Below, one piece after another: positions 53,720 through 56,810 of a stretch of 64,000 nucleotides of DNA. Position 1 is the first letter of the stretch. The number at the start of each line of letters is the position of its first letter. The notes beneath the pieces were generated by a model. It made no database searches, had not been told where the DNA came from, and was given only the letters and a program-made list of their open reading frames with translations. The DNA comes from Kordiimonas sp. SCSIO 12610 (GTDB lineage: Bacteria > Pseudomonadota > Alphaproteobacteria > Sphingomonadales > Kordiimonadaceae), in NCBI RefSeq assembly GCF_024398015.1, contig NZ_CP073747.1:1560501-1624500 (forward strand). The letters are read 5' to 3'. Made by a program: the position numbers and the translations under genes.

Positions 53720-54007
53720 ATGGCCTATTACGTTTATATTCTTGCCAGTAAAAAACATGGTACGCTTTACACCGGCGTTACCAACAATCTTTCTCGTCGT
53801 GTTTGGGAGCATAAGCAAGGTATTGGCTCAGATTTTACTAAGAAATACTCAGTACACCGTCTTGTCCACATTGAAGCTATTGATGATGTAAAGCTCGCTA
53901 TTCAGCGCGAGAAAACACTCAAGGAATGGAAACGGGATTGGAAGATTGCATTGATCGAAAAAGATAACCCTGATTGGAATGATCTTTATAGCAGGTTAAA
54001 TGCCTGA
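53720..54007 (+). CDS. Single-domain GIY-YIG nuclease (YhbQ/UPF0213-like) inside a palindromic repeat
   Basis: A 95-aa protein comprising only a GIY-YIG catalytic domain: YYVYILASKKHGTLYTGVTN is the GIY-YIG core (YVY and YTG), RRVWEHKQGIGS carries the conserved Arg and His, and IQREKTLKEWKRDWKIALIEK has the Glu metal ligand and the final basic helix. These small nucleases are usually annotated as UPF0213/YhbQ; their roles are unknown. A longer frame reads back through the hairpin at 53670 and gives a repeat-encoded leader, which is rejected. The gene lies exactly between two inverted hairpins of the repeat (53670-53699 and 54013-54042), in a spot where other copies hold only a short spacer. 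Confidence 0.85.
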   Translation: MAYYVYILASKKHGTLYTGVTNNLSRRVWEHKQGIGSDFTKKYSVHRLVHIEAIDDVKLAIQREKTLKEWKRDWKIALIEKDNPDWNDLYSRLNA

Positions 54008-54749: not shown

Positions 54750-55127
54750 TCAGGCAATGCGTTCCTGTTTTTGGTCCACTTCAACAAGCATATTGATCAA
54801 GGGGCGGGCGATGATCATCAGGGTAACAATACCCATACCGGCTAGCACCGCGAAGAAAGTCAAGTTCGCACCTGTTGTATCGCTTAAGAGGATCAGGCTT
54901 TCGGCAAATCCTTGAACATTTGTTTCGGGATTAAGTGATAGGAACACCCGCCCGAGCGCAAGCGTGCCGTAAACGAGGGTCAGGATACGCACAGTCGCGA
55001 GCGGCACATCGGTGCTGCATCGAACAATCGCCTTCAAAAGCACGGCGCCAGACGCAGAAAAGAGGGCCGTAATAATGAGCGCAAGCGCGACATTGAGGAC
55101 AAGATAACTGATAAAATATGTAAGCAT
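54750..55127 (-). CDS. Small four-helix membrane protein, unknown
   Basis: A 125-aa protein with hydrophobic segments at about 4-28, 45-65, 75-100 and 95-115 and short loops; a polar C-terminus (DQKQERIA). The start has a good AGAGGAG ribosome-binding site and follows the DCC gene by two bases, so it is the last gene of the operon 56015-54750. No family is recognised. By context it works with the DCC-type redox protein in the membrane. Confidence 0.6.
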   Translation of the reverse strand: MLTYFISYLVLNVALALIITALFSASGAVLLKAIVRCSTDVPLATVRILTLVYGTLALGRVFLSLNPETNVQGFAESLILLSDTTGANLTFFAVLAGMGIVTLMIIARPLINMLVEVDQKQERIA

Positions 55128-55129
55128 GG

Positions 55130-55630
55130 TTAGCTCCTCTTTGTTGGACGTTTAGGTGATAGTATAATCGGTGGTGTAGAAGTGTTTTGCGGATTTTGGG
55201 TGTTCTTCTGTTGCTCCCTTCTCAGGCGCATACGGTTCCATTCATAGACCGCGCGCGACAGGATATGGTCATAAAGGAAGGCGGAAACCTGCCGAATAAT
55301 CGGTAGCTCGATCAGGCGCCCCACAATGGCCAGGCCCGGAATTTCCTTCCAAAGGGCGGTAATGCCATCAACCCCAATCCGCGGGACGCCCGCAGCATCA
55401 ACCACATAAATGCGCCGGAACGCCATTTCCTGGGTGATGCCAAGGCCGAGCAGGGCATTTTTATTTTCGTCTCGCGAGATATCGACCCAATCAAGCGGTG
55501 CATCCACGGCTTCGCTCATACGTTTGTAGCGTTCCATCTCTGTCCGGCAAATGGGGCACGCACCATTATAGTAGCTGGTAGTGCGCTGGTTAGTATTCTG
55601 TTTGTTATGCTGTCTTTTATGCAGGGGCAC
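55130..55630 (-). CDS. DCC-family thiol-disulfide oxidoreductase (DUF393)
   Basis: About 166 aa. The DUF393 core begins with YYNGACPICRTEM (CxxC in the DxxC/CPxC pattern), followed by DWVDISRDENKNALLGLGI, then VDAAGVPRIGVDGITALWKEIPGL and the transmembrane-like FLYDHILSRAVYEWNRM. The start is the GTG at 55630, with AGAGGAAAAG upstream; it overlaps the end of the preceding gene by 14 bases. A longer frame runs to 55711. The DCC group is a thioredoxin-like family of unknown reaction, often paired with membrane proteins, as here. Confidence 0.8.
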   Translation of the reverse strand: MPLHKRQHNKQNTNQRTTSYYNGACPICRTEMERYKRMSEAVDAPLDWVDISRDENKNALLGLGITQEMAFRRIYVVDAAGVPRIGVDGITALWKEIPGLAIVGRLIELPIIRQVSAFLYDHILSRAVYEWNRMRLRREQQKNTQNPQNTSTPPIILSPKRPTKRS

Positions 55631-56015
55631 GGCCTTTTCCTCTCCTGAATAGATATGTAAAGCCTGAGCAAAACGCACCACCAAGCGCACCCATACCTGC
55701 AAGGGTTGCATATAACGTCAAATCAGATCTGGGCGGGTTAATGATTGCAATAATTACGATGGATGCAGTTGCCCCATAGAGAATTGTTGCGAGAAGGTTT
55801 TCGCCTGTATATCGCCTGATAATGATCCAAATAAAAGCCATTGGCGGAACGACAAAAATACTGATAAGCGTACCATACAAAGCGGCAGCTACAGCATAAA
55901 TAGGCTTTTCTAACAAACCGAAACAAACTGCGACACTTATAAAGGCAAGGTATGTACAGCCAACTGTACGCCCGAAACTTGGAAAATGAACAGGTCTGTC
56001 ATGGGTAAGTTTCAT
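55617..56015 (-). CDS. Four-helix membrane protein, first gene of the DCC operon
   Basis: A 132-aa protein with four predicted transmembrane helices (about 18-35, 45-65, 75-93, 100-120), a basic loop IIRRYTGENL, and a C-terminus RRGKGRAPA. No family recognised. An AAAGGAGAAAAT ribosome-binding site precedes the ATG, and a palindromic operator-like site lies 28 bases upstream (56043-56062). The end overlaps the DCC gene. It forms an operon with 55630-55130 and 55127-54750. Confidence 0.65.
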   Translation of the reverse strand: MKLTHDRPVHFPSFGRTVGCTYLAFISVAVCFGLLEKPIYAVAAALYGTLISIFVVPPMAFIWIIIRRYTGENLLATILYGATASIVIIAIINPPRSDLTLYATLAGMGALGGAFCSGFTYLFRRGKGRAPA

Positions 56016-56042: not shown

Positions 56043-56062
56043 ATTTCTGTCAAAACAGAAAT
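56043..56062. promoter_or_regulatory. Palindromic operator-like site before the DCC operon
   Basis: ATTTCTGT-CAAA-ACAGAAAT: a perfect inverted repeat with 8-base arms. The core TTTCTGT...ACAGAAA recurs in the longer palindrome upstream of the GbsR-type regulator gene (56661-56696), so both are likely sites for the same protein. Confidence 0.75.
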
Positions 56063-56104
56063 TTAAAGATAAATTTTTTGCTACTTTCCAGTTATCTCTT
56101 CAAA

Positions 56105-56644
56105 TCAATCGGTATCTTTGCCTTTTGGCAGGAACTTCGCGACGCCTGTGCCGAGCTTCATCAGGGCAACCAGTGTGGGCTTCGGTAGCTTTTGCATCTT
56201 CTCGTACCATGAGGCGAGGGTTTCAATAAACTCAAGCATGCGGAACATGCGTTCCTTCACTTCGTCAGCAATTTCTGGGTCCTCTGACGCATCGAGCTTT
56301 GTATCACGCAGTAGCGAAAGCGTTGGATCAATTTCCCGCTTTTTGCGCTCTGCAACAATGGTTAGTAGCATGGTCCACAGGTCTTTTTCCGCAGTGAAGT
56401 GATCACGCCTGTCACCCAGTTTTTGTGTTACCCGCACCAACTGCCATGCCTGCAATTCCTTCAGCGATGTAGACACGTTCGAGCGCGCGATACCTAGTGT
56501 TTCCGAAATTTCTTCGGCAGTCAGGGCATCCGGTGACAAATAGAGAAGGGCATGGATCTGTGAGACCGAACGGTTCACGCCCCAGCGTGTGCCCATTTCT
56601 CCCCAGTGCAGGATGTATCGTTCTATGCTTGGTGTAATCTTCAT
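56105..56644 (-). CDS. GbsR/MarR-type transcriptional regulator
   Basis: A 179-aa winged-helix protein of the GbsR group: EMGTRWGVNRSVSQIHALLYLSPDALTAEEISETLGIARSNVSTSLKELQAW (in pieces) gives the helix-turn-helix, and RVTQKLGDRRDHFTAEKD the wing. The C-terminal helix bundle is the dimer part. GbsR-type regulators act as repressors in response to small ligands such as choline or solutes in Bacillus; the ligand is unknown here. A near-perfect 16-bp palindrome lies just upstream (56661-56696), and a shorter copy sits before the next operon (56043-56062): the protein probably represses itself and that operon. Confidence 0.85.
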   Translation of the reverse strand: MKITPSIERYILHWGEMGTRWGVNRSVSQIHALLYLSPDALTAEEISETLGIARSNVSTSLKELQAWQLVRVTQKLGDRRDHFTAEKDLWTMLLTIVAERKKREIDPTLSLLRDTKLDASEDPEIADEVKERMFRMLEFIETLASWYEKMQKLPKPTLVALMKLGTGVAKFLPKGKDTD

Positions 56645-56660
56645 ATCATCTATATAGGCA

Positions 56661-56696
56661 TATCTGTAATTTCTGTCAATACAGAAATTACAGATA
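56661..56696. promoter_or_regulatory. 16-bp-arm palindrome upstream of the GbsR-type gene
   Basis: TATCTGTAATTTCTGT, spacer CAAT, ACAGAAATTACAGATA: arms match over all 16 bases. It ends 16 bases before the regulator's ATG (56644), where it would block transcription initiation. The inner half resembles the site at 56043-56062. Confidence 0.85.
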
Positions 56697-56810
56697 TTAT
56701 TGTAGTTAATGATAACATCATAGACGTCGATCTTCTCCGCGACATCGGTGCATCTTGCATAACCCCTTATAATAAGCCACGATAAACATCTTATTTTTGG
56801 GGAGAGGATT

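Follow-up and report, generated by a model that had tools for sequence, protein, structure and literature searches.

The locus raises the question of whether two matching palindromes are the operators of one regulator, through which a GbsR-type protein would control its own gene together with an adjoining operon of two membrane proteins and a thiol oxidoreductase. In the window, i.e. the whole stretch of 64,000 nucleotides of Kordiimonas sp. SCSIO 12610 that was analysed, the regulator ORF is located on the minus strand at 56105..56644 and encodes 179 amino acids without a cysteine. It is followed on the same strand by MEM132 (55617..56015), the first operon gene, whose product was judged a membrane protein by eye with no family assigned, by the gene of a DCC1-like thiol-disulfide oxidoreductase (55130..55630; 166 amino acids, CPIC, PF04134) and by MEM125 (54750..55127), whose product was judged a small membrane protein by eye. 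According to the sequence, the ORFs of MEM132 and the DCC protein overlap and those of the DCC protein and MEM125 are separated by 2 nt; the DCC start, a GTG at 55630, was picked by overlap and spacing. The window also contains a small GIY-YIG nuclease-like ORF at 53720-54007 (PF01541, 59.4 bits versus 22.6), between the short palindromes GGGACTTGATCCC and CCGTGATCAAGTCACGG.

Both palindromes are real and have the common core that the earlier note had reported, ATTTCTGT-N4-ACAGAAAT, at 56669-56688 before the regulator and at 56043-56062 before the three-gene operon. The self operator (56660..56697) was measured as a palindrome of 38 bp, in which 17-base arms flank a 4-base centre and which encloses the conserved 20-bp core, in place of the 36 bp and 16-base arms given previously. 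The operon operator (56043..56062) is 20 bp long with 8-base arms and sits after the regulator stop and before the first operon gene. The pattern TTTCTGTNNNNACAGAAA occurs twice in the window without a mismatch, and a window scan with up to three mismatches yielded 9 matches versus 3.48 expected, a number reached by 3 of 100 shuffles. The whole-genome search that had been proposed as a check returned the exact core twice in the 3,501,651 bases of the own genome, both times in the window. With up to two mismatches, 41 places were found versus 26 for the reversed pattern, 38 of them with two mismatches; the sole one-mismatch place was rejected as an operator, as it sits within a coding ORF.

The regulator was filed as a GbsR-type member of the MarR family on the basis of its match to the Pfam model MarR_2 and of Mj223 being the best hit by profile and by predicted fold, Mj223 serving as the template of GbsR models in the available part of a review (PMC6207618). 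The match to MarR_2 (PF12802, 39.1 bits, cut-off 27) indicates a MarR-type winged helix-turn-helix. A profile of 42 regulator sequences run against PDB sequences gave Mj223 (1KU9) first (E 2.3e-19), and the AlphaFold2 model of the regulator (pLDDT 92.3) gave 1KU9 at rank 1 in Foldseek (E 2.2e-9). In the alignment, one Trp (W90) is nearly invariant across the group. The distribution of the regulator is patchy, with 9 of 59 genomes positive in the nearest-relatives scan, own genome counted. Two regulator matches apiece, some of them partial or weak, were present in G214, G227, G120 and G277, possibly as paralogues with split duties.

The conservation of the operator was determined in relatives from named genomes, of which the best 80 of 398 were kept, and in an order-wide scan of 296 genomes, 75 of which had a regulator match. 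The tree set comprised 135 rows with 131 distinct regulator proteins, loci repeating already included genomes being skipped. For motif scoring, seven of the 131 were dropped as having no anchor (L022, L023, L045, L150, L157, L161 and L173) and two cyd rows were counted apart, so that 122 non-cyd regulators were left, minus one upstream and two downstream where the sequence was too short. In 118 of the 121 distinct non-cyd regulators, the upstream motif scored 13/16 or more (below 13 in L034, L050 and L101), with a maximum of 12 in the reversed-motif control, and a copy was found downstream of the regulator in 69 of 120 relatives versus 0 in the reversed control. Across a set of 122 operators selected at 13/16 or more, positions 3-5 (TTC) and 18 (A) were invariant, a conservation that is itself favoured by this selection.

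In the order set, ATTTCTGNNNNNACAGAAAT was present in 53 of the 75 genomes with a regulator match versus 1 of the 221 without (Fisher 1.6e-39), and the reversed control pattern in 1 of 296; 55 of the 59 ATTTCTGNNNNNACAGAAAT sites were located within 200 bp of a regulator match. The exact pattern was absent from 22 regulator-match genomes, some of which are CydE-type, very weak or one-mismatch cases. The site in the one site-bearing genome without a regulator match (G020) was rejected as an operator, because it is inside a class II tRNA-synthetase gene. Since the sites track the regulator gene with this single exception, it is very improbable that the palindromes are the sites of another, unrelated DNA-binding protein. 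A genome-wide search was also done in a further 50 genomes, taken from the 80 because they bear the regulator (those left out include L034 and L039, with the TTTCAGT variant), and found the exact pattern in 35 of the 50 and not in the other 15. It occurred there 47 times in all, 43 times at the regulator locus, and the control gave 0 matches. The looser 12-base TTTCTGNNNNNNCAGAAA was rejected as a regulon marker, as beyond the known sites it did not single out regulator genomes (10 genomes): there were 9 sites in 7 regulator-less genomes and 4 reversed-control matches, and G014 and G021 had an additional site apiece, in both cases not ahead of the target set. By sequence comparison, the branch to which the regulator belongs occurs in alpha-, beta- and gammaproteobacteria, and its operator hardly varies.

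Genes adjoining the regulator were called by homology support and profiles; greedy ORF calls gave spurious ORFs at high-GC loci. The families so recognised were MEM131 (downstream of the regulator in 40 loci), SDR with DoxX (33), DUF4166 (two clusters, of 24 and 6), DUF2269 (11) and DCC (11), together with saccharopine-dehydrogenase-like proteins, fatty-acid desaturase and others; the SDR_DoxX profile also catches a membrane domain at the N terminus (L184). At the 113 loci where a next gene was recognised, the presence of a second operator was counted against the gap from the regulator stop to the next conserved domain: 0/22 at less than 25 bp, 1/10 at 25-50 bp, 55/76 at 50-150 bp and 2/5 at wider gaps. 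Directly after the second operator of one locus, an ORF of 621 amino acids (L033:4588-6453) fuses an SDR epimerase, DUF1731 and a DCC domain.

Regulator-bearing genomes contained seven distant exact sites (order set, 3; the 50 further genomes, 4), and all seven precede gene types seen beside the regulator in other genomes, i.e. desaturase (1), DUF4166 with saccharopine dehydrogenase (3), SDR/DoxX with DUF2269 (2) and SDR with DUF4166 (1). The strongest evidence for a real regulon, as far as sequence can provide it, is that regulator neighbours of some genomes recur elsewhere as distant targets. Taken with the conserved sites and the co-occurrence with the regulator, these shared target types strongly support the earlier prediction of a regulon of the regulator gene and the DCC operon. 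A DUF2269-DUF4166-saccharopine-dehydrogenase-like cluster is also located in the own genome, far from the window (L179:2821-5097; G000:C1, about 1,246,300-1,248,600); no operator was found there, and such genes can thus fall outside the regulon. ORFs similar to this cluster (L180) were observed in G001, of the same genus and without a regulator match.

The distant sites also bear on the proposal that the palindromes work at the RNA level, as hairpins or terminators. Although 56660-56697 was flagged as terminator-like on the plus strand by a scanner, this is the antisense strand of the regulator, conservation extends to the letters beyond pairing alone, and the distant sites precede gene starts, so that this proposal is given next to no weight. 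Read as operators, the palindromes tie DUF4166, DUF2269, MEM131 and the two window membrane proteins, all without known function, and the DCC proteins to one regulon with a searchable 20-bp motif as its address, and the deletion profile or the ligand of one regulator would inform all these families.

Promoters were scored by their matches out of 12, and 49 of the 167 operators reached 9/12 versus a shuffled mean of 17.0 (sd 2.4). Of 101 self operators, 32 have a promoter scoring 9/12 or better with its -10 beginning 8 to 2 bases ahead of them; 9/12 promoters were found at 5 of 59 second operators and 3 of 7 distant sites. The predicted regulator promoter of the window, TTATCA-17-TGTAAT (56687..56715, minus strand, 9/12 matches), has its -10 starting 4 bases ahead of the operator core and overlapping it, in a register shared with other species; it was not reported by a stricter promoter scanner. 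For the window operon, the best promoter match was 8/12.

The reading favoured here, with a probability of roughly 80%, is that of a GbsR-type autorepressor which also represses MEM132-DCC-MEM125, is released by a ligand and belongs to a separate, non-CydE branch with a recurring target set. The product of 56105-56644, presumably as a dimer, would bind ATTTCTGT-N4-ACAGAAAT. The self operator overlaps the predicted -10 of the regulator promoter, where bound protein would block RNA polymerase and bring about autorepression, and from the operator just ahead of MEM132-DCC-MEM125 the operon would likewise be repressed. Some signal would free the protein from both sites, upon which regulator and operon would rise together; such joint induction by a ligand fits the known GbsR-type repressors. 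Binding, repression and a ligand are what we infer from the predicted fold and from the sites, their conservation, their co-occurrence with the regulator and the target sets, all of which are sequence-based. Promoters are rarely recognised at second sites, and repression of the operon therefore rests on site conservation and analogy.

The direction of control is not given by sequence alone and the second-site promoters are poorly defined, which would leave room for a regulator that binds both sites but activates transcription, or both activates and represses. The -10 position recurring just before the self operators is, however, a blocking one, and CydE and CioR, the nearest characterised relatives found, are repressors according to the available parts of the reports (PMC6096048, PMC11837568). 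Activation is accordingly considered unlikely.

As for the proteins of the window operon, MEM132 had no Pfam or NCBIfam match, and a counterpart, 31% identical, was found at the equivalent position in Kordiimonas gwangyangensis. The DCC protein scored 55.3 bits against PF04134 (cut-off 27.8) and contains CPIC in its translation, which places it among the DCC1-like proteins; in what we take to be their DxxCxxC motif, the Asp is an Asn in the window protein. The search of the 296 genomes with MEM125 returned itself, a relative with 63% identity in G014 and eight weak matches (27-35% identity, E 1.9e-5 to 5.7e-4), six of which are 107-566 bp from a regulator gene, and one of the other two has seven stops. 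By coordinate arithmetic, the matches in G084, G136, G138 and G220 fall within the MEM131 ORF. For MEM125 and MEM131, hhalign gave a gapless alignment of 83 columns (P 2.6e-4, probability 42%); earlier hhalign runs among the small membrane families had given faint signals only, the 42% being reached with other alignments. MEM125 is probably a divergent relative of MEM131, an assignment made from sequence with moderate confidence. The MEM131 model (pLDDT 86.8) consists of three long helices and had no PDB fold match at E <=0.001. In MEM131 (L116:2109-2480 and 26 relatives), N48, H49, H98 and N101 are invariant and situated in the predicted long helices, and a cofactor or quinone site is possible. 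The MEM125 sequence contains no histidine.

With regard to the signal, the earlier suggestion of a redox- or osmolyte-related ligand found no support. The regulator scored 64.6 against the CudC equivalog model for the choline regulator, below the cut-off of 218, and osmolyte genes (choline/betaine synthesis, Opu) were absent among the 7 window proteins and the 10 representative neighbours named, on which grounds the osmolyte reading was set aside as unsupported. The window regulator itself was ruled out as a cysteine-based redox sensor by its lack of Cys; relatives may differ, as Cys is present in 31 of 42 aligned regulator sequences at the column where the window regulator has T. The operon itself may have a redox role, because a DCC thiol protein is among the targets. 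From the family names of the desaturase, SDR/DoxX, DUF2269 and the small membrane proteins, a membrane-lipid or membrane-redox link can be guessed. A broader reading, put forward tentatively and at less than even odds, is that of a further GbsR-type branch, linked neither to osmolytes nor to cytochrome bd, which in Pseudomonadota guards a modular toolkit for membrane-lipid oxidoreduction (desaturase, SDR/DoxX, saccharopine-dehydrogenase-like reductase, DCC thiol protein and the small membrane partners MEM131/MEM125) and responds to a compound derived from membranes or lipids, with a fixed operator and with targets exchanged between lineages.

The regulator was finally compared with the known systems. 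No paper on the present GbsR-type subfamily or its regulon, on DUF4166, or on GbsR together with DUF393 was found in the open-licence PMC literature. Of the 179 members covered in the available part of the GbsR review, 34 adjoin cyd genes, largely those of alpha- and betaproteobacteria, and for 73, most of them from Euryarchaeota and Bacteroidetes, no context could be assigned (PMC6207618). The same source describes GbsR and OpuAR as responsive to choline or other osmolytes (PMC6207618), and the Firmicutes regulators GbsR, OpuAR, OpcR and CudC have the family and the predicted fold in common with the window regulator, which differs from them in that no osmolyte gene was recognised near it and the CudC cut-off was missed. 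Mj223 (1KU9) is the nearest solved structure by sequence profile and fold, but it is archaeal and superposes with TM-scores of 0.61 and 0.71 and an rmsd of 4.3. CioR of Chromobacterium violaceum, also GbsR-type, directly represses its own cioRAB operon (PMC11837568); unlike the window regulator it has a cytochrome bd target, and the accessible text describes loss of DNA binding with iron or zinc in vitro.

CydE of Alishewanella sp. WH16-1 is a GbsR-type repressor of cydAB and of its own promoter, footprinted on TATTTCAGAAATTTCTGAAAGTTCA in the available part of the report (PMC6096048). CydE regulates cytochrome bd, whereas the window regulator adjoins MEM132-DCC-MEM125 with no cydAB/cioAB next door. 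The CydA profile matched 4 loci with 3 distinct regulators, all on a branch apart from the window regulator, and in the midpoint-rooted tree the three cyd-linked rows formed one separate branch (100/100), to be read with the nine long end branches flagged and the caution that the cyd side is where long branches come together. In the same tree, a row labelled Desulfobacula (L053) adjoins an alphaproteobacterial MAG row (L066). The L023 and L024 regulators precede cytochrome bd subunit I genes; L023 has the shared N-terminal GEMGSRWG.NR stretch, and its upstream palindrome includes TTTCAGAAATTTCTGAAA, which in the available text forms the core of the Alishewanella CydE footprint. That footprinted site, TATTTCAGAAATTTCTGAAAGTTCA, holds TTTCAGA-N4-TCTGAAA, a 7-4-7 palindrome in the same 18-bp TTTC-N10-GAAA frame as the window operator; the half-sites differ, TTTCAGA for CydE versus TTTCTGT in the window, whose operators thus lack the CydE half-site. 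A was found at position 6 in 14 of 122 operators, and intermediate sites, TTTCAGT-N4-ACTGAAA, in L026, L034 and L039. The two related repressors, with TTTCTGT here and TTTCAGA for CydE, respectively, provide a natural comparison of operator specificity.
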